Origin: Bacillota bacterium
GTDB taxonomy: Bacteria > Bacillota > Sulfobacillia > DUMF01
Length of the DNA: 52,080 nucleotides
Reading direction: 5' to 3'
Assembly: GCA_012840015.1 (NCBI GenBank)
Contig: DUMF01000003.1
Location: 1-52,080 of the forward strand
The notes under the pieces were generated by a model. The model was not told where the DNA came from and did not search any database. It was given only the letters and a program-made list of their open reading frames with translations. Position numbers and translations under genes: made by a program. Positions 3,247-11,742 of this stretch are shown here, one piece after another. How positions within the stretch are numbered: position 1 is the first letter of the stretch; each line of letters opens with the position of its first letter.

Positions 3247-3335
3247 TGTGACGCTGTGATATATTACAATGGTTGCATAAGGCAGTGATTCAGCCGCCAA
3301 GCTGGGCTATTATGGCGGGAAGATGGAGGGAGAAC

Positions 3336-4886
3336 ATGAAAAAGAACCAGACACGTGACAGCACTCTTACCGGCTTTTACGGATGGGTGGAAAAGATTGG
3401 TAATAAGGTACCTCATCCGGTCTACCTATTCATATGGTTTTTCGTTTTAACTCTGATATTGTCCGCATTACTAAGTGCAACGGGCCTAACGGCAGTTAAC
3501 CCCGCAACCAAAAAGCCGGTTGCAGTCGTAAACCTACTGACGAGTCAAAGCATAGCTAATATCGCTGTCAATGCCATGAAGGAATTTGTCAATTTCCCGC
3601 CTTTGGGTACGGTATTGATTTGTACCTTGGGTTTGGGAGTAGCCACTGGAAGCGGATTACTCAAGGCGTCTCTTAAGTTGGCCGGCCTATCCAAGTCAGC
3701 ATTCATGATCACGGCGATTGTAATGCTCATCGGAATCAACGGCAATATCGCCGGAGACGCCGCATTCGTGGTGTACCCTCCGTTGGTAGCGATGCTGTTT
3801 CAGGGAATGGGGCAGAATCCGCTCGCAGGGTTGTTTGCAGGTTTTGCCAGTGTGGCTTGTGGTTTCGGAGCCAATTTCCTGGTAGGCTCCGGAGATATGT
3901 CATTGGCTGGCATGACTGAAGCCGCGGCAAAACTGATCGATCCGAAATACGTAGCCTCGCCTGCCATGGGATATTACTTCCTTTTTGTATCGGCTCTGGT
4001 ATTAACGCCGATAGGCACATGGGTGACATTGAGATTCGTCGAGCCTAAACTGAACGAGATGGGGCTTGGCACAAGCGCCGCTAACGCGGAACTAAGAGCC
4101 GACAACGTCGTGGGCGATACTAAGCTTACCCCCGTGGAGTCGAAGGGGCTAAAGCTTGCCGGAGCCGTGTTGCTAGCTTATTTCGTGGTGATCGCGCTCC
4201 TAACGCTGCCTGGAATGCCCTTCTGCGCTCCGAAAGGCGGTTCCGTCATTACAGGGCCGTTAATGAAATCTCTCCCACCGCTCATAGCGCTCATGTTTCT
4301 GATCCCGGGCTACGCTTACGGTAAAGTGGTCGGTACGATGAAGACTTTCAACGATGCAATAAAGGGCATGACGAACGAAATCAAGACCCTGGCAAACTTC
4401 ATCGTCATATGCTTCTTTGCCGCTCAGTTTTTGGCGGTTTTCCGGGACAGTAACATAGGCCTTATCATCGCGATCTACGGCGGAAACTTGCTGAAAGCCT
4501 CCGGGCTTCCCGGCCCGTGGTTGCTAGCGTCCTTCGTAGTAGTGGTAGGTATCATCAACCTGTTCATCGGGAGCGCCAACGCAAAGTGGTCCGTGCTTTC
4601 CAGCGTCTTCGTACCAATGCTGATGATAGCGGGAATCAGCCCGGCAGGTACGCAGGTAGCATATCGTATGGGTGACAGCATAACGAACAATATTACGCCG
4701 ACCCTACCGTACCTGGCCATAATGCTGGGCTACGCGCAGCAGTATGATTCGAGGGCGAAAACGGGCACCGTTCTGGCCTATATGTTGCCTTATACCTTCG
4801 CCTTTACCATAGCCTGGATCGCGCTTCTTCTGGTATGGCTGTACTTGAAGCTCCCAGTCGGGCCAGGATACTATGGTTTCATGTGA
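3336..4886 (+). CDS. AbgT family transporter (p-aminobenzoyl-glutamate type)
   Basis: Polytopic inner-membrane carrier of the AbgT family, known for proton-driven import of p-aminobenzoyl-glutamate, and in some members for sulfonamide efflux. The product is about 516 residues, near the 508 of E. coli AbgT. Family features include an N-terminal GWVEKIGNKVPHPVYLFIWF, the re-entrant region INGNIAGDAAFVVYPPLVAM, GFGANFLVGSGDMSLAG, and a C-terminal FIGSANAKWSVLSSVFVPML with GDSITNNITPTLPYLA. The ATG at 3336 follows GGAGGG by 5 bases and is preferred over an in-frame ATG at 3273 that has no ribosome binding site. A downstream M20 amidohydrolase fits a role in importing an acylated or benzoylated amino acid that is then hydrolysed. 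Confidence 0.9.
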   Translation: MKKNQTRDSTLTGFYGWVEKIGNKVPHPVYLFIWFFVLTLILSALLSATGLTAVNPATKKPVAVVNLLTSQSIANIAVNAMKEFVNFPPLGTVLICTLGLGVATGSGLLKASLKLAGLSKSAFMITAIVMLIGINGNIAGDAAFVVYPPLVAMLFQGMGQNPLAGLFAGFASVACGFGANFLVGSGDMSLAGMTEAAAKLIDPKYVASPAMGYYFLFVSALVLTPIGTWVTLRFVEPKLNEMGLGTSAANAELRADNVVGDTKLTPVESKGLKLAGAVLLAYFVVIALLTLPGMPFCAPKGGSVITGPLMKSLPPLIALMFLIPGYAYGKVVGTMKTFNDAIKGMTNEIKTLANFIVICFFAAQFLAVFRDSNIGLIIAIYGGNLLKASGLPGPWLLASFVVVVGIINLFIGSANAKWSVLSSVFVPMLMIAGISPAGTQVAYRMGDSITNNITPTLPYLAIMLGYAQQYDSRAKTGTVLAYMLPYTFAFTIAWIALLLVWLYLKLPVGPGYYGFM

Positions 4887-4928
4887 AATCATCGCTGCAA
4901 TAACTGGCAATCATAATTGATGCGGGAC

Positions 4929-4957
4929 GAGCTCTTTCGCGCCTTGCGAAGGAGCTC
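4929..4957 (+). terminator. Strong hairpin between the transporter and amidohydrolase genes
   Basis: GAGCTCTTTCGC (4929-4940) pairs with GCGAAGGAGCTC (4946-4957) across a 5-base loop: 12 pairs including one G-T wobble. It lies 43 bases after the AbgT stop. The T-run behind it is poor (ACCTTCTT), so it may be an imperfect terminator, a processing site, or an element lowering expression of the downstream gene. Confidence 0.45.
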
Positions 4958-5101
4958 ACCTTCTTAAAGAGAAGTCACGGAACGCGTGCAACAGGGGGAT
5001 TCTCAGACTCGCTGGAATCGTTAACTCGATTGTGTCAGGCCGGCTTCGACTGAATAAACAAAACCTTACTCCTAACTCAAAAAATACGAGGGGATGTTGG
5101 C

Positions 5102-6286
5102 TTGGACTATTTGGCAGCAGTTCAGCTTATCAAGGACAAAGTTGTACAGTACAGAAGGCATTTCCACATGCACCCTGAGTTAAGCGGCAAAGAGTTCGAC
5201 ACAGCCAGGTTCGTAGCAGACAGGCTTGTTGAGCTGGGTCTCGACGTAACCACCAACGTGGGGCAGCCACTACCCGGTGTAGTAGCACTATTGAGAGGCT
5301 CAAGCGGTGGAAAGACAGTAGCGCTTAGAGCAGATATGGATGCATTAGCCGTCACGGAGCAAAACGACGTACCATATCGGTCGCGTGTAGAAGGCGCGAT
5401 GCATGCCTGCGGTCACGACGCTCATACAGCTATATTGCTTGGAGCGGCAGAAGTACTGTCACGATACAAGGGCGAGCTGAGTGGTAACGTGAAATTCATT
5501 TTCGAGCCTTCTGAGGAATACGTGGGTGGAGCGCTTCCCATGATACGCGCAGGTGTGCTGTCGGATCCCGAAGTGAATGCGGTTTTCGCTCTTCATGTAG
5601 ACCCTTCCTACCGGGTAGGCGAGATCGGCATTTCATATGGCGAGACTCTGGCCGCATCAGACAGGCTCATAATCAGAATCAAAGGCAAGAGCGCGCATGG
5701 TGCCACTCCCCATCTTGCGGTAGACTCTGTTGTGGTAGCAGCGCACGCGATAATCGCTCTCCAGTCAGTGATCAGTAGAGAAAAGGACCCGCTTTCGCCA
5801 GCAGTACTAAGCTTTGGGGTTTTCCAAGGTGGGAACCAGCCGAATTCCATCGCGGACGAAGTCTTGATACGGGGGATTTTGCGCACGCTTAACCCCAACG
5901 TCAGGGAAGATTTGATCCGTAAGATCGAACAAGTGCTGAAAGGCATCACGGAGTCGTTCGGTGCCAGCTACGAATTCACCCGAGAAAAAAGCTATGACAC
6001 GCTGATAAACGATGACCGAATGGTAGATTTCCTTAAGCGAGTGGCTATACAAGTCATTGGAACTCAAGGCGTAAAACTTCTGGAGCGGCCGAGATTGATA
6101 GTCGAGGATTTCGCTTATTTCCTGCAAAAAGTACCGGGGGCCTTCTTTTTCCTCGGCTGTGGGAACCCGGAAAAGGGCTTGAACCATCCTTTACATAGTT
6201 CCAGATTCGACATTGACGAAGGGTGCTTGCCCTTAGGAGTCGCCCTGGAAGTCGCTCTGGCAATGACATACCTGAAAGAAGGCTGA
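5102..6286 (+). CDS. M20 family metallo-amidohydrolase (N-acyl amino acid / aminobenzoyl-glutamate type)
   Basis: Cytoplasmic binuclear-metal peptidase of the M20D (HipO/IAA-amino-acid hydrolase) group, which removes the acyl group from N-acyl amino acids. The 394-residue product shows RRHFHMHPELSGKE at the N-terminus, ALRADMDAL, the metal-binding HACGHDAHTA (Cys103, His105), the general-base FEPSEE (Glu138/139), LHVDP, and a C-terminal HSSRFDIDE. The dimerisation-domain segment is also present. The start is the TTG at 5102 behind GAGGGG. It lies 215 bases after the AbgT gene and 3 bases before the D-aminoacylase remnant, so the three formed a utilisation locus. The exact substrate is not readable. 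Confidence 0.9.
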   Translation: MDYLAAVQLIKDKVVQYRRHFHMHPELSGKEFDTARFVADRLVELGLDVTTNVGQPLPGVVALLRGSSGGKTVALRADMDALAVTEQNDVPYRSRVEGAMHACGHDAHTAILLGAAEVLSRYKGELSGNVKFIFEPSEEYVGGALPMIRAGVLSDPEVNAVFALHVDPSYRVGEIGISYGETLAASDRLIIRIKGKSAHGATPHLAVDSVVVAAHAIIALQSVISREKDPLSPAVLSFGVFQGGNQPNSIADEVLIRGILRTLNPNVREDLIRKIEQVLKGITESFGASYEFTREKSYDTLINDDRMVDFLKRVAIQVIGTQGVKLLERPRLIVEDFAYFLQKVPGAFFFLGCGNPEKGLNHPLHSSRFDIDEGCLPLGVALEVALAMTYLKEG

Positions 6287-6289
6287 GCG

Positions 6290-7619
6290 ATGTACGATAT
6301 GTTAATCACGGGTGGGGAGTTGCTGGACGGTACGGGACAACCGTCCTTCCGATCGGATGTCGGGATCAAGGACAGCAAGATCGCTGCCATCGGGAATCTG
6401 TCGGGTAAACTGCCTGCCGAACGTCTAGACGCATCGGGCTTAATCGTAGCTCCGCGTTTCATCGATCTCACAGCCATTCCGAGCCGGCGTTAATCTTCGA
6501 TCCGGACGATTTGTCCAAGTTGAGTCAAGGCGCGACCACACAAATCGTCGGGAATTGCGGTTTTTCGGTATACCCAGTCACGAAAAAGCATGAAGACGCA
6601 TCTCGCCTATCCCGGTGAAGAGTGGAGTTGGCGGCATTTCTCGGGTCTCCTTCAACAGCTGAGATTCGTAGGGCCGAGTACCAACGTAGGGGCACTGGTG
6701 GGCCATGGGAGCATCCGTATCGCGGCAGTAGGCTTTCAGGAGAAAAGGCCCTCTGCAGACGAGTTGAACCAGATGCAGCAGTTCATATTCGAGGCCATGC
6801 AGCAGGGAGCCCTGGGCATGAGCTCAGGGTTGGCGTACGCTCCCAGTTGCTTTGCCGATGTAGAGGAACTAGCCGCTTTTGATGGTGTATATGCCTCCCA
6901 CCTGCGTAACGAAGGCAGGATGTTGCAGGACAGCGTGGGAAGCACTAGAGATCGGGCGCCGGTCCGGAGTTAAGCAAACCACGGTAAAGTCAGGTCAACC
7001 CTCAAGCTCATCCAGAAGGCCAATTCAGAGGGATTACGGGTGACGCTTGACGTCTATCCCTATACTGCGGGTTGTACTATGATGTTGATCGTGTTCCCCC
7101 CATGGGCTTTGGAGCGAGGTATCGATAACTTCGTCCAAAACCTCCGTGATCCCGCTTTCCGCCAGAGAATAATACAGGCGTTCCGCGAGGATCTAGAAGG
7201 CTGGGAAAACAGGTCAAAAACCGTCGGTTGGGAAAACATCCTGCTAAGCTCGGTTTCCAGCGATAAGAGCCCCAACAAATGGGCGGAAGGGCTTTCGACA
7301 TGAAGCTCGTGCTCAGCAATCCCATGGCAATGGTATGCAGTGACGGTCTCCATTCTGGCGGAAAACCTCACCCCAGGCTTTACGGAACTTTTCCTCGAGT
7401 TCTGGGAAAGTATGTTCGCGAGGAACATGTGCTGGAACTGCCCGAAGCGATAAGGAAAATGACCTCCCTGCCCGCACAAGTCTTCGGGCTCCGCGGTGTG
7501 GGCATCCTCAAGCTTAAGTCTCGGAAGGCATAAAACGCGTCATTGTCTCTGGGAAGTCAGCCATAAGAGACGGCAAGGCCACAGGGATTAGGGCAGGCCG
7601 GATCATCCCACGCAGGTAA
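6290..7619 (+). pseudogene. N-acyl-D-amino-acid deacylase (D-aminoacylase), inactivated
   Basis: Member of the amidohydrolase superfamily that frees D-amino acids from N-acyl-D-amino acids. The start is normal (MYDMLITGGELLDGTGQPSF, 3 bases after the M20 stop), but the metal-binding HxH segment is deleted and a stop appears at 6491. Family segments reappear in other frames: WSWRHFSGLLQQL near 6620, GALGMSSGLAYAPSC near 6805, GVYASHLRNEGRM near 6885, LDVYPYTAGCTMM near 7043, AMVCSDGLHSGGKPHPRLYG near 7328, and the tail RDGKATGIRAGRIIPRR ending at 7619. At least four frame changes plus deletions make it clearly dead. All pieces are in order and on one strand. Confidence 0.9.
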
Positions 7620-7628
7620 GATCCATGC

Positions 7629-7657
7629 TTGACTTTTTCGGAGCGCTGGGATATGCT
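7629..7657 (+). promoter_or_regulatory. Sigma-A-like promoter of the Phd/MocA operon
   Basis: TTGACT (7629-7634) and TATGCT (7652-7657) are separated by exactly 17 bases. Transcription would begin near 7664, just upstream of the palindrome at 7677-7698 and the ribosome binding site of the Phd-like gene. The promoter begins only 9 bases after the end of the D-aminoacylase remnant, so this operon is independent of it. Confidence 0.55.
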
Positions 7658-7676
7658 GCCCTAAGGAGTGGCATAG

Positions 7677-7698
7677 AATGTACAGTTTTCTGTACATT
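7677..7698 (+). promoter_or_regulatory. Perfect palindrome, candidate operator for the Phd-like protein
   Basis: AATGTACAG and CTGTACATT form a perfect 9-base inverted repeat around TTTT. It sits about 13 to 34 bases downstream of the predicted transcription start and 46 bases from its centre to the ATG at 7724+. Phd/YefM antitoxins are known to bind palindromes of the form TGTACA in their own promoters, which is the core seen here. The trailing TTTTT also leaves open a weak terminator or attenuator. Confidence 0.6.
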
Positions 7699-7723
7699 TT
7701 TGGGCCGGAGGTGCATGCCCAGC

Positions 7724-7936
7724 ATGATCAGGACTCACCCCATCACCGAGGCGCGCAGGCTTTTTCTCGGCCTCATCGATAGGCTACAGAAAACGTTTGA
7801 ACGAGTAGTCATAACGAAACACGGTCGCCCCGTGGCCGTACTCTTGAGCTACGATGACTACGTTCGGCTTACCGCTTCGTTGGAGCTGCTGCAGCAGAAA
7901 AAGGATGCGAGAGGCGGGAGTCAGACGGATGCCTGA
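7724..7936 (+). CDS. Phd/YefM family antitoxin-like protein
   Basis: Small DNA-binding antitoxin-like protein of 70 residues from the ATG at 7724. It reads MIRTHPITEARRLFLGLIDR, then VVITKHGRPVAVLLSYDDYVRL, the standard Phd/YefM fold: an N-terminal DNA-binding and dimer part with the conserved KxGRPxAVLxSxxDY core, and a short C-terminal tail that would wrap a toxin. GGAGGT lies 11 bases ahead of this ATG; an ATG at 7715 is only 2 bases from it, and a much earlier in-frame ATG at 7625 would place the promoter inside the gene. It overlaps the next gene by 8 bases (ATGCCTGA). No free-standing toxin gene follows; see the next entry. Confidence 0.8.
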   Translation: MIRTHPITEARRLFLGLIDRLQKTFERVVITKHGRPVAVLLSYDDYVRLTASLELLQQKKDARGGSQTDA

Positions 7937-8738
7937 GATAGCGTCTCTCACCTCACTGATCGACTACATAACACACCACCCCGAAGAAGGCATCCCTATC
8001 CCCGAAGAGCTCGGCGGAGGCTACTACTGGAAACTGGACGAATATCACTGGATTACATATGAAATGACCGGATCTGGGGTCAGGTTCACCGATATGCGTT
8101 TGCCAGGATCTTGCCCCTCTTCCCTCCCACACTCCGGACAATTGGCAGGAGTAGTACTTGCAGCCGGTCCAAAGACCGTGCATGGCCTGCCTACGGTGAT
8201 CGCCAGTGCCGACGGAGAACCCGCCGTAGTCAAGGTGGTGAAAAACTTACGTTCCAGCGGAGTACGCCACATCATCGTGGTGACCGGATACATGGCTGAG
8301 TCAGTACAGGATGCCATTTGCGATTGCCTTGGGAAGGAAATCGGTAGCGCCTATTGGTTACAGATCGTACAGAATAGTAAATACGCGCTCGGGCTCTATT
8401 CGTCTCTTCGAGCTGGGCTAAGGTTGGTCCCCCCTTACTTCGATGGCGTGCTCATGGCTTTCGGCGACCAACCGCAGGTATCTCCAACCGTGCTGAACCA
8501 CCTCACCCAAAGCTTCAGAGAAGGCGCGCGGATCGTCACACCGGCGTTTGCCGGAAGGCGTGGACACCCGATGCTCATCGGGAGAGAGTTCCTGCGTCAC
8601 TCCTTCTCCGACCGTCAACGCGGACCATCTTATCTGTTACGGAGATTCCGGAACTCAGTAAAAGACGTGGAAGTCTCCGACCCAAATATCTTGCGGAGCG
8701 TTCCGTCTCACGCACACACTACCCTGAAACAAGGGTAA
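7929..8738 (+). CDS. MocA/MobA-like nucleotidyltransferase with a RelE/ParE-like N-terminal segment
   Basis: About 269 residues in two parts. Residues 80-269 are a MobA-like NTP-transferase domain: GVVLAAG, VVTGYMAESV, SSLRAGLRL, MAFGDQPQVSP and RRGHPMLIGREF are hallmarks of the MocA group, which transfers a nucleotide to molybdopterin or other small molecules. The nucleotide loop is degenerate: LAAGPKTVHGLPT lacks the usual RMGxPK lysine motif. Residues 1-60 (LIDYITHHPEEGIPIPEEL, YYWKLDEYHWITYEM, VRFTDMRLPG) follow the helix then beta-hairpin pattern of RelE/ParE toxins. The first half is preceded by an overlapping antitoxin gene, which strengthens that reading but does not prove it. The ATG at 7929 overlaps the Phd-like stop. 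Confidence 0.7.
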   Translation: MPEIASLTSLIDYITHHPEEGIPIPEELGGGYYWKLDEYHWITYEMTGSGVRFTDMRLPGSCPSSLPHSGQLAGVVLAAGPKTVHGLPTVIASADGEPAVVKVVKNLRSSGVRHIIVVTGYMAESVQDAICDCLGKEIGSAYWLQIVQNSKYALGLYSSLRAGLRLVPPYFDGVLMAFGDQPQVSPTVLNHLTQSFREGARIVTPAFAGRRGHPMLIGREFLRHSFSDRQRGPSYLLRRFRNSVKDVEVSDPNILRSVPSHAHTTLKQG

Positions 8739-8751
8739 GGAGGGATCTTTC

Positions 8752-9312
8752 TTGAACGATATCAAACGAATGAGCGTCACCGAAATAGTAGAACTATCCG
8801 TTCTCGCCGTACTCAGCATGGTCACCAAACCCTACATACGTTCAGCCATTGCCCTATTCATGACAGGTCTTGCCGTCCCTGTAGGTGTTTTCGCAGGTGG
8901 CTTATATATGGCGTGGGTCGTGCTGGCGGGAGGTATATCCCAGACCAGGGGTACAACCGCCCTGTTTTGTACGCTGCAGGGGCTCTTAGCCCTGTTGCTA
9001 GGGATGAGCGGTGGACTTGGACCGTTCGTGTTGGTTTCGTACATCCTTCCCGGTCTTGCCCTCGAAGTGCTGTATGCGCTGGTTCCCCTTCAACCTAGGC
9101 CAGCCTGGCTGTGCACTCTGGCAGGTGGAATAGCAAACCTGACCGGGAGTACTCTCAACTCCATACTAATGTTTCAGCTCAAAGGCAAGATGCTCGCAAT
9201 CTGGGGGATTCCCTCCGCGTTAAGTGGCGCAGTCGGCGGCTACCTGGGCTATCTCGTCCTACGCAGGCTGGTTTCACTCGCGCTGAGGCACCCGGCGAGA
9301 GAACAGCACTAA
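8752..9312 (+). CDS. ECF transporter S-component-like membrane protein
   Basis: A 186-residue hydrophobic protein with five to six predicted membrane segments, for example VGVFAGGLYMAWVVLAGGI, ALFCTLQGLLALLLG and a C-terminal LSGAVGGYLGYLVLRRLV. Length, hydrophobicity and the AxSMVTKPYIRSA start resemble substrate-binding S-components of energy-coupling-factor vitamin and metal importers. No EcfA or EcfT gene is in the window, so it would have to share an ECF module encoded elsewhere. The start is a TTG behind AAGGAGGG with a 7-base spacer. The stop overlaps the next start (TAATG). The ligand is unknown. Confidence 0.65.
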   Translation: MNDIKRMSVTEIVELSVLAVLSMVTKPYIRSAIALFMTGLAVPVGVFAGGLYMAWVVLAGGISQTRGTTALFCTLQGLLALLLGMSGGLGPFVLVSYILPGLALEVLYALVPLQPRPAWLCTLAGGIANLTGSTLNSILMFQLKGKMLAIWGIPSALSGAVGGYLGYLVLRRLVSLALRHPAREQH

Positions 9313-9860
9313 TGAAGAACCTCTTTCTCACGGGAAAGCGTCATGTGGGCAAGACTACCCTGATTAGGGAAGTGATATCTTCCTGGAAAGGCCCTGTAGG
9401 TGGCTTCATGGTAGAGCGAAGGCGATACCCGGATGGCGCTTTCGCTTTTGACATCGTTGACATCATGACGTTCGAAAGAGCCCCCATCGCTTCCTCATAT
9501 GACGGCAATTGCTGGCTGGCGCAGCCTGGGGGTTTCGATTCCGTCGGAGTCCGCTCCATTGTAGGCGCTTTGGCAAATGCTACTCTTATTGTAATGGACG
9601 AGCTCGGCTTTTTTGAGTTGGAGGCCAAACGTTTTCAAGAAGCAGTCTTTGATGCGTTGTCCGGGAAGGTGCCCGTATTAGGAGTACTGAAGGCTGATTT
9701 GAACCCGTTCATCTCAGCAGTAAAGGAAAGGCCCGACGTGCTGCTAATAGAAGTTACGCGCGCCAACAGGGAAGAAATACGGCGCGATCTACGCCGTTGG
9801 GTCGAATTGTGGGGTGTGTGGAGTGTTCGAATGGGATCTGAAAAAGGCCGAATGGTATGA
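9312..9860 (+). CDS. THEP1-like nucleoside-triphosphatase (NTPase_1 family)
   Basis: A 182-residue P-loop NTPase. The Walker A is GKRHVGKTTL close to the N-terminus and the Walker B is LIVMDELGFFE, the pattern of the THEP1/NTPase_1 family, whose members hydrolyse several NTPs but have no firm cellular role. PVGGFMVERRRYPDGAFAFDIVDI matches the family's GFxTxExRxxGxRxGFxI segment. Translational coupling (TAATG) with the S-component gene and a 47-base overlap with the methyltransferase gene put it inside the same operon. An energising or regulatory role for the transporter is possible but speculative. Confidence 0.75.
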   Translation: MKNLFLTGKRHVGKTTLIREVISSWKGPVGGFMVERRRYPDGAFAFDIVDIMTFERAPIASSYDGNCWLAQPGGFDSVGVRSIVGALANATLIVMDELGFFELEAKRFQEAVFDALSGKVPVLGVLKADLNPFISAVKERPDVLLIEVTRANREEIRRDLRRWVELWGVWSVRMGSEKGRMV

Positions 9861-10527
9861 CCGGGCTCTGGAGAATTCGCAATATACGGCAGTATTCCTG
9901 CCTATCATCACGCAGCTGGTTCGTGGAGCTGAGACAGCATTGGATGTGTGTGCTGGAGTGGGCGCGTTCACGCTCCCCCTCGCTCGACTTGTACCGTCGG
10001 TCACCGCTATAGATTGCTCGGATGTCGCCATTCAGTATCTCCAAATCCGGGCTAAGCGTCACGGCCTGTCGAATATCACCTGCCTGAAAGTAGCGTGGGA
10101 AGATTTCAAAGGTGGCCCTTTCGACGTAATTCTGGCCGCTTATCCTGCCGATTGTGTCGTAGGTTCGGTTGAAGCACTAAGTAGACTGCACCGAATGGCG
10201 CTAAAGGCGGTCGCTTTGATCCTGCCGGTCACGAGAAAGCAGACCGACCCGCCTTCACGCCGCGTTGTTGCAGAAGATGTACGCGGTTATCTGGGGGACC
10301 TGGGGATCGAGCCATCTACAGCAGTTTTTGAATATGACTTCGGCCAACCCTTCCTCTCTCGATCCGAAGCGCGGGAATTCGTCGAGGCGTACGCTGGAAA
10401 ATCCTCCTCAAGCGGCCCTGCCTTGGAAGAGTGGTTAAACCGTTCACTGGTGCAGCGCGCCCAAGGATTTTATCTCCCCATTAAGCGCAAAAGCGCAATG
10501 GTCTGGTGGAAAGCCCGTCCCACATAA
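9814..10527 (+). CDS. Class I SAM-dependent methyltransferase
   Basis: A 237-residue protein with the SAM-binding motif I ALDVCAGVGAFTLPLA, an acidic motif II in VTAIDCSDVAIQYLQ, and a later FDVILAAYPADC stretch at the motif IV position. The fold is that of Rossmann-type small-molecule or protein methyltransferases. A C-terminal part of about 90 residues carries no motif I recognise. Its start (GTG at 9814 in the long reading, GTG at 9823 as an alternative) lies within the end of the NTPase gene, so the two are translated in a coupled fashion. The substrate is unknown. Confidence 0.75.
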   Translation: MCGVFEWDLKKAEWYDRALENSQYTAVFLPIITQLVRGAETALDVCAGVGAFTLPLARLVPSVTAIDCSDVAIQYLQIRAKRHGLSNITCLKVAWEDFKGGPFDVILAAYPADCVVGSVEALSRLHRMALKAVALILPVTRKQTDPPSRRVVAEDVRGYLGDLGIEPSTAVFEYDFGQPFLSRSEAREFVEAYAGKSSSSGPALEEWLNRSLVQRAQGFYLPIKRKSAMVWWKARPT

Positions 10528-10536
10528 GATGTATCT

Positions 10537-11742
10537 GTGACGGCTAGACGGCAAAACGCCTTCAACTATCTGGCTGCCGAGCTGATATCGGCGGCAGGGG
10601 CAGGCATTTCCTCAGTATTGTTTCCCCTGTTCCTTCTGGCAGGCGGTTTCAAAGAGGACTTCCTGGGCCTTCTCGCTTCCATAGGGAGTGGCATCGCGGG
10701 GCTCATGTCTCTGCCCGCCTCTTTGGTAGTCGCACGCCTCGGCTATCGTCGCTCCATATTGATCGGCATGGTGACAGGGGTCACAGTATCGTTCATCCAA
10801 GTGTTGTGGCCTACGAGCACCTGCCTGATCGCCACTCAGGTAATATCCGGGTGCTTCAGTTCACTCTCGCTTGTGATTCATTCTCCTTACCTCGTAGAGA
10901 ACGCCGGCGAAGAATGCGGTACCAGGATCCTCAGCCTCAGTATGGCGGGAGTTACGATCATAGGAACGGTTTTCAACATTGTGGGAGGGTGGTTACCAGC
11001 CCGTCTATCAGCTTTGACCGGCCTATTTCACCCGGACGACTTCGGCGCGTACCGGGCCGGTTTACTGGTTGCCTGCCTGATCAGCTCCATGTCCATCTTG
11101 CCTGCAGTCATGCTTAAAGAAGACCTGTCTCACCGTGTGGCCAGCCGCTTTCGGTTTGGCTGGGCCACCTACCCCTGGCTAACGCTAGCGAAAGTCACAG
11201 TGGTGTCGGTCTCGCTCGGATTCGGAGCGGGCCTATTCATGCCCTTCATGAACGTGTATTGGAAGACACGTTTCTCCTTGAACACCGAGTTGGTGGGTAT
11301 AATCTCCGCCGCGACAGCCGGGGCAGTAGGTCTGGGAGCCACCCTGGCTCCCGTAGCTGAGCGGAGGCTGGGGCTCAGGAAGGCTATTCCGATACTGACT
11401 GGGCTTTCGCTTTTTCCAATGTATGGGATGATCGGCTCTTCTAGCTTTCGGTCGGCAGCATGGTTATTCCTGACGAGAACCACGCTGGTGAATGCTACCA
11501 GCCCCTTGAGAATGAACCTCACTATGGAGGTGGTGGAAAGCGAACATCGGCCGCTGGCCGCTTCAGTGGAAAGCCTTGCCTGGAGCCTGGCGTGGGCTGC
11601 AGGAGCAGCATATGGAGGAAGGCTGATCCTAGCTGCCGGGTATTCCCTGTTGTTCAGATTGTCCGTGTGGGTGTATGCCTGGGCAACGCTCGCTTATCCA
11701 TTGTGCTTCGGATTGTATCCTCCTGGGGGTAGGGTAAAATAA
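10537..11742 (+). CDS. Major facilitator superfamily transporter
   Basis: A 401-residue, very hydrophobic protein with about 12 membrane segments and the MFS loop 2-3 pattern in VVARLGYRRSILIG. It starts with GTG at 10537, 9 bases after the methyltransferase stop, and closes the operon that begins with the Phd-like gene. Nothing in the sequence fixes the substrate; together with the S-component it gives the operon two potential transport functions, possibly import and export of related molecules. The next gene begins after a 70-base gap with its own strong ribosome binding site. Confidence 0.8.
   Translation: MTARRQNAFNYLAAELISAAGAGISSVLFPLFLLAGGFKEDFLGLLASIGSGIAGLMSLPASLVVARLGYRRSILIGMVTGVTVSFIQVLWPTSTCLIATQVISGCFSSLSLVIHSPYLVENAGEECGTRILSLSMAGVTIIGTVFNIVGGWLPARLSALTGLFHPDDFGAYRAGLLVACLISSMSILPAVMLKEDLSHRVASRFRFGWATYPWLTLAKVTVVSVSLGFGAGLFMPFMNVYWKTRFSLNTELVGIISAATAGAVGLGATLAPVAERRLGLRKAIPILTGLSLFPMYGMIGSSSFRSAAWLFLTRTTLVNATSPLRMNLTMEVVESEHRPLAASVESLAWSLAWAAGAAYGGRLILAAGYSLLFRLSVWVYAWATLAYPLCFGLYPPGGRVK

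Follow-up and report, generated by a model that had tools for sequence, protein, structure and literature searches.

What does an antitoxin-type repressor do at the head of an operon whose other products handle nucleotides, methylate and sit in the membrane? The question is raised by six genes, here called P1 to P6, on contig DUMF01000003.1 of a Bacillota bacterium (assembly GCA_012840015.1; class Sulfobacillia, DUMF01) with a 2.04-Mb genome; the window analysed comprises positions 1 to 52,080 of that contig. The block is real: its genes overlap or lie close together on the forward strand (7724–11742), behind one promoter-like site and a perfect palindrome. The original prediction regarded it as a free-standing system for a small molecule, led by an antitoxin and accompanied by no toxin. 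Our reading, to which we give a probability of roughly 60 %, is that it is a molybdenum-cofactor accessory operon that has captured a yefM promoter and repressor and carries a dead YoeB toxin fused to a MocA-like domain, its function being suggested by gene context. The nearest genomes available for comparison share only the class with the host, and Escherichia coli MocA, YoeB and YefM rows were added to alignments and profiles as extra yardsticks.

A YefM-type repressor, its operator and a YoeB remnant

The first gene encodes, as predicted, a Phd/YefM-type protein: P1 matches PhdYeFM (PF02604) at 1.7e-16 and 60 bits against a cut-off of 29.8, and is the sole Phd/YefM protein found in the genome by profile search. 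At 70 residues it lacks, by alignment, the C-terminal toxin-binding segment that is conserved in antitoxins. The palindromic operator that had been proposed is likewise borne out, the perfect repeat at 7677–7698 ending 25 nt 5' of the P1 start codon. The operator of yefM-yoeB systems consists of two TGTACA cores whose centres lie 12 bp apart (PMC3920265, PMC7730913), and the repeat has exactly this geometry; its TGTACA-N6-TGTACA core (7679–7696) occurs once in the genome, and the reversed control pattern not at all. Sites of the TTGACT-17-TATGCT type are no commoner in the region than in shuffles in a consensus scan.

The start of P2 falls within the final codons of P1, at the position expected for yoeB, and the first 60 residues of P2 are absent from every MocA homologue aligned. 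A YoeB-toxin hidden Markov model (HMM) scored this N-terminus at 17.7 bits (best of 2000 shuffles, 5.5) and ranked P2 first among 3778 open reading frames (ORFs), with an E value of 0.0075 as against 1.9 for the next distinct ORF; with the E. coli row removed, P2 was still best at 15.7 bits (best shuffle, 7.4). Alignment of profiles with hhalign paired the N-terminus with YoeB columns 26–82 at a probability of 93 %, and the AlphaFold model of this part has a helix (7–16) and three strands (32–35, 41–47 and 50–56), in agreement with the corresponding part of the RelE/YoeB fold. A match of the same segment to desulfoferrodoxin was rejected, its E value of 0.14 being that of chance. No YoeB rises above the profile cut-off anywhere in the genome.

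On this comparison of sequences, P2 residues 4–59 are the remnant of a YoeB-type toxin without its key residues; in the alignment about 25 residues of the YoeB N-terminus are missing, as are the positions corresponding to R65, H83 and Y84. The block is thus not free of a toxin, as had been supposed: a degenerate YoeB domain forms the N-terminus of the MocA-like protein. P1 and this N-terminus together represent a decayed yefM-yoeB cassette whose operator still heads the operon, and the front end of the operon is very probably of toxin–antitoxin origin. Like the yefM-yoeB (axe-txe) cassette, it has a YefM-type gene first, YoeB-like sequence directly after it and a paired TGTACA operator; unlike that cassette, its toxin is truncated, devoid of R65, H83 and Y84 and fused to a MocA-like domain, the C-terminus of P1 is shortened, and the whole stands before a metabolic operon. 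Because the C-terminal gap of P1 and the N-terminal gap of the remnant meet at the gene junction, we infer that one deletion across the junction is the simplest history.

The order of a YefM gene, a YoeB-like domain and a standard operator is also what would be expected of a functional toxin–antitoxin or defence operon, in which P2 would be a fused toxin, P1 its antitoxin and the remaining genes cargo. However, the toxin part lacks its N-terminal residues and the three key positions, and P1 lacks its C-terminal segment, so we consider such an operon highly improbable and have dropped an active module; phage defence was considered and dropped as well. When 96 related loci, 1.13 Mb in all, were scanned with YefM and YoeB profiles, neither was found, and the capture of the antitoxin is therefore lineage-specific. 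The original prediction was to be refuted if Phd-like and MocA-like genes adjoined one another in no other genome; within the loci searched they never do, so the antitoxin is an addition rather than a core part.

The MocA-like domain of P2

MocA adds cytidine monophosphate to molybdopterin for xanthine-dehydrogenase-type enzymes. The remainder of P2 matches NTP_transf_3 (PF12804) at 3.6e-18 and scores about 91 bits on the models of both MocA (TIGR03310) and the DVU_1551 family (NF045665), failing the curated cut-offs of each (91.5 against 186.45 bits for TIGR03310; 315 bits required by NF045665). It has retained the LAAG, GDQP and GHP motifs in alignments, its fold is predicted well (predicted local distance difference test values mostly above 85 within the domain), and a Foldseek search with the model returned Rv0371c (2we9) as best match, with MobA more distant. 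P2 thus resembles the MocA/DVU_1551 family in fold, in its equal scores and in the neighbours of its relatives, but differs in falling under both cut-offs, in having lost the conserved R, K and DxDTPxD, in lacking a C-terminal HD domain and in possessing the YoeB-like N-terminus. Besides GlmU it is the only MocA-like protein of its own genome. All motifs are intact in the MocA homologue of a locus from the same class (L144). A literature search on DVU_1551 returned nothing relevant.

In another locus (L041:275–1186) a MocA-like domain whose N-terminal motif is also degenerate is joined, as identified by eye, to a ModE/LysR-like helix-turn-helix domain, a possible precedent for the use of a MocA fold in regulation.

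Relatives of P4 and P5 in molybdenum-hydroxylase neighbourhoods

P4 matches NTPase_1 at 4e-27 (95.5 bits) and has, in the alignment, the Walker A sequence GKRHVGKTT and an invariant MDELGFFE. P5 matches a class I methyltransferase profile at 1e-9; its ORF opens at 9814, and GTG at 9823 is the better start because family members begin similarly (M-F-x-W). We sampled 50 Clostridia-type loci containing relatives of the nucleoside triphosphatase (NTPase) and clustered the neighbouring genes before naming them by profile. The neighbours comprised XdhC, YqeB, YqeC, DVU_1551, a MoeA-like protein, xanthine-dehydrogenase subunits, DVU_1553, DVU_1556 and TrsS, as well as a LysR/ModE-like regulator and a FecCD-type ATP-binding cassette importer. 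A molybdenum-hydroxylase or maturation gene lay within 1.5 kb of the NTPase homologue in 21 of the 50 loci and in none of 34 unrelated control loci (p 3e-6).

The families of the block also keep one another's company in these loci. A P5-family methyltransferase is found near the NTPase in 18 of them, in one of which (L016:10001–11284) it is fused to NTPase_1; in nine others (L004, L005, L007, L008, L009, L010, L012, L014 and L015) NTPase_1 is fused to a different, UbiE-like methyltransferase, the domains having been scanned in L010:5102–6292 only. L017 and L022 have the row XdhC-NTPase-methyltransferase-S component-EtfB-DVU_1551-MoeA-like, and in L144 MocA, the S component and the NTPase adjoin the flavin adenine dinucleotide (FAD) and Fe-S/Mo subunits of a xanthine-dehydrogenase-type enzyme. 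Methyltransferase matches in genomes of the same class were mostly generic methyltransferases.

P3 to P5 are thus quite probably linked to molybdenum. Four of its families (NTPase, methyltransferase, MocA-like and S component) also occur in the maturation clusters of selenium-dependent molybdenum hydroxylases and aldehyde oxidoreductases (YqeB, YqeC, XdhC, DVU_1551–1556, TrsS); unlike those clusters, the block has no XdhC, YqeB, YqeC, MoeA or hydroxylase gene of its own. The original prediction knew of no described system of this make-up; in Clostridia, as in the class of the host, relatives of the NTPase, the methyltransferase, the S component and MocA/DVU_1551 do recur beside molybdenum-hydroxylase maturation genes. 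The idea of a new system, led by an antitoxin, that would make, methylate, import and export a nucleotide-linked molecule agrees with the gene families, which are as described, but relatives free of any antitoxin sit in molybdenum-hydroxylase clusters, and we give that proposal very little credence.

The S component P3 and its sister operons

P3 matches ABC_cobalt (PF09819, YkoE-type) at 2e-8 and 34.7 bits (cut-off 25.2), and its model has six membrane helices in the fold of the S component, the substrate-binding membrane subunit of energy-coupling factor (ECF) importers. In Foldseek the best match was YkoE (5edl; template-modelling score 0.72, structure-based identity 21 %), a thiamine-binding S component of solved structure (5EDL; PMC5037267). 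Helix 2 carries an invariant Y52 and W55 spaced like Tyr46 and Trp49 of YkoE, a mapping drawn from spacing and helix only. Import of thiamine or of a pyrimidine precursor, as by YkoE, with the molybdenum neighbourhoods incidental, would account for both the fold and this Y-x-x-W spacing. However, profiles built from S components of the P3 family gave chance matches only in the PDB and did not retrieve YkoE itself, stacking on the tryptophan would also suit a pterin ring, and no thiamine genes were seen near P3-family members in the neighbourhoods read.

Indeed, the partners of P3's relatives point elsewhere. In a tree P3 clusters with the S components of NTPase-linked loci, nearest to those of L143 and L144 (support 93/89). 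Sister S components in eight loci of the same class (L168–L175) are accompanied by MobB and by two EcfA genes and EcfT in 8/8 and by exported proteins of the molybdopterin-binding fold (Oxidored_molyb) in 7/8, with an exported type I phosphodiesterase in three of these loci and also in the related L006. The more distant S components of L165 (1450–2622) and L166 carry a fused Oxidored_molyb domain, and in L166 the gene of an exported metallophosphoesterase (L166:1006–2040) precedes the fusion (L166:2037–3509). The recurrence of MobB and Oxidored_molyb suggests a link between the sister S components and molybdopterin compounds; these partners would be explained if a trimmed molybdopterin were imported once a dinucleotide or phosphate had been cleaved outside the cell. 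P3 shares the YkoE fold, family and helix 2 residues, but differs from YkoE in having relatives beside molybdenum genes rather than thiamine genes, and a dedicated EcfAAT module is confined to its sister operons. The import through the S component that had been proposed is accordingly predicted by family and by these operons. We judge thiamine as substrate improbable and have dropped plain thiamine uptake; a molybdopterin-type substrate for P3 is a tentative assignment at slightly under even odds, and the dedicated operons of L168–L175 are candidate molybdopterin importers.

Layout of the block and adjacent genes

Reading through the ORFs together with family searches placed the six genes as listed in Table 1, with successive spacings from P1 to P6 of an 8-nt overlap, 13 nt, a 1-nt overlap, an overlap of about 38–47 nt and 9 nt. 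The earlier bounds of 7629–11742 hold at the right-hand end, the first gene starting at 7724 and not at 7629; profile searches uphold the families that had been named (PhdYeFM, NTP_transf_3, ABC_cobalt, NTPase_1, class I methyltransferase and major facilitator superfamily, MFS), and nucleotide-handling, methylating and membrane proteins are indeed joined in one unit. P6, the MFS member (PF07690, 1.8e-15) and the putative exporter of the original prediction, has a counterpart near the NTPase in one further locus only (L013).

Table 1. Features of the block (positions in the window)
Feature	Position	Strand	Basis
Promoter-like site TTGACT-17-TATGCT	7629..7657	+	Consensus scan, 9/12 matches
Perfect inverted repeat AATGTACA-GTTTTC-TGTACATT	7677..7698	.	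Core TGTACA pair, unique in genome
P1, YefM/Phd-type antitoxin-repressor, 70 aa	7724..7936	+	PF02604 1.7e-16, alignment
P2, degenerate YoeB-like + MocA-like nucleotidyltransferase fusion	7929..8738	+	HMM, alignments, structure model
YoeB-like remnant, P2 residues 4–59	7938..8105	+	YoeB HMM, hhalign, model
MocA-like domain, P2 residues 74–257	8148..8699	+	PF12804 3.6e-18, alignments, Foldseek
P3, ECF S component, YkoE-like fold, TTG start	8752..9312	+	PF09819, model, Foldseek, tree
P4, THEP1-like NTPase (NTPase_1)	9312..9860	+	Profile, alignment
P5, class I S-adenosylmethionine methyltransferase	9823..10527	+	Profile 1e-9, subfamily motif [DE]FGQP
P6, MFS transporter	10537..11742	+	PF07690 1.8e-15

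Directly upstream of the block, a D-aminoacylase-like amidohydrolase sequence (6290–7533) is spread over at least four frames and is a pseudogene, or contains sequence errors. It is preceded at 3273–6286 by genes identified by eye as an AbgT-like transporter and, after it, an M20-type amidohydrolase, as in the use of p-aminobenzoyl-glutamate.

Molybdenum genes of the host and the weight of the evidence

The host genome has one xanthine-dehydrogenase-type enzyme, its sole MoCoBD_1 match lying on contig C27, together with MoaA, MoaC, MoaB and two MoeA genes on C25 and XdhC on C26. There is one EcfT, in a shared EcfA1-A2-T module beside ribosomal genes on C19. The large subunit of the xanthine-dehydrogenase-type enzyme (L105:8242–10499, on C27) is read in two ORFs overlapping by ATGA, with MoCoBD_1 and MoCoBD_2 halves, and may represent a split gene, a frameshift or a sequence error. 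At L106:6132–8060, beside MoaA, MoaC and MoaB, a MoeA is fused to a periplasmic-binding-protein-like domain.

A number of observations weigh against a captured accessory operon for molybdenum cofactor. The host's own hydroxylase is on a different contig from the operon, and with MoaA and MoaC present, and hence cofactor synthesis of its own, salvage would not be essential. Windows 8 kb away in the sampled neighbourhoods hold molybdenum genes nearly as often (15/61, p 0.07), so that the NTPase is linked to the cluster as a whole rather than strictly to its adjacent gene. The one solved S component of P3's fold, YkoE, binds thiamine (PMC5037267). Queried by itself against Pfam, NCBIfam and PDB sequences, the N-terminus of P2 is not identified as a YoeB remnant. 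Finally, V84 and T89 stand in the MocA-like domain for the R and K of LAAGxxxRxGxxK, which other members keep, RSVPSHA occupies the position of DxDTPxD (D-x-D-T-P-x-D), and the codon-usage signal of the domain is the weakest of the block (−0.03 against 0.05 to 0.13 bits per codon). With these active-site residues lost, P2 may be a pseudoenzyme, serving to bind or to sense, or else its gene may be decaying.

The last points bear directly on an explanation by decay alone, in which a molybdenum accessory operon received a yefM-yoeB cassette, toxin and MocA gene are both wrecks, and P1 represses only itself and a half-dead operon without any new regulation. It would fit the loss of conserved active-site residues from both domains of P2, the weak codon-usage signal in the MocA-like domain, the frameshifted pseudogene just upstream and the lack of Phd/YoeB in all 96 related loci. 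However, the frame of 269 codons has stayed open and its MocA fold is well predicted, P3 to P6 are intact, the operator is perfect and unique, and the losses hit active-site motifs while much of the remainder is conserved. We regard decay alone as possible but distinctly the less likely account.

Proposed mechanism and implications

Our current working model is that the block would be an accessory operon for the supply of cofactor to molybdenum hydroxylases, from which we infer a role in their maturation. P3 would bind the substrate at the membrane for an ECF importer driven by the shared EcfA1-A2-T module, and that substrate is most likely a pterin of the molybdopterin type, either whole or without its phosphate or nucleotide. 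In the corresponding salvage route, the compound would be delivered to ECF import by molybdopterin-binding proteins and phosphoesterases outside the cell, and MobB or MocA would then re-nucleotidylate it; the C-terminal domain of P2 presumably descends from MocA, and P4 and P5, conserved as a pair, would belong to this accessory set too. P1, a YefM-type repressor derived from a yefM-yoeB cassette, is predicted to bind the paired TGTACA at the start of the operon and so control its expression. YoeB, having lost its key residues, probably through the yefM/yoeB junction deletion, would have become the N-terminal domain of P2; as YoeB acts as corepressor in repression, the remnant might still do so, and, more speculatively, the MocA-like part could report the state of cofactor or nucleotide to P1. 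Such regulatory use of the fusion is doubtful, at perhaps one chance in four, and only slightly less unlikely is the combined proposal that P3 and its sisters import a molybdopterin-type cofactor and that the captured YefM, with a YoeB-MocA-like sensor, switches the route according to cofactor state.

A literature search found no published ECF transporter or bacterial importer for molybdopterin or molybdenum cofactor, and for animals feeding on bacteria the passage of the cofactor across membranes has been called an open question (PMC9793310). With the present S-component family, the import of molybdopterin becomes directly testable in bacteria. In addition, a metabolic operon that has kept a toxin–antitoxin promoter and repressor as its switch, and one of whose products carries the dead toxin as a fused domain, would provide a concrete case of the possible domestication of such a cassette.

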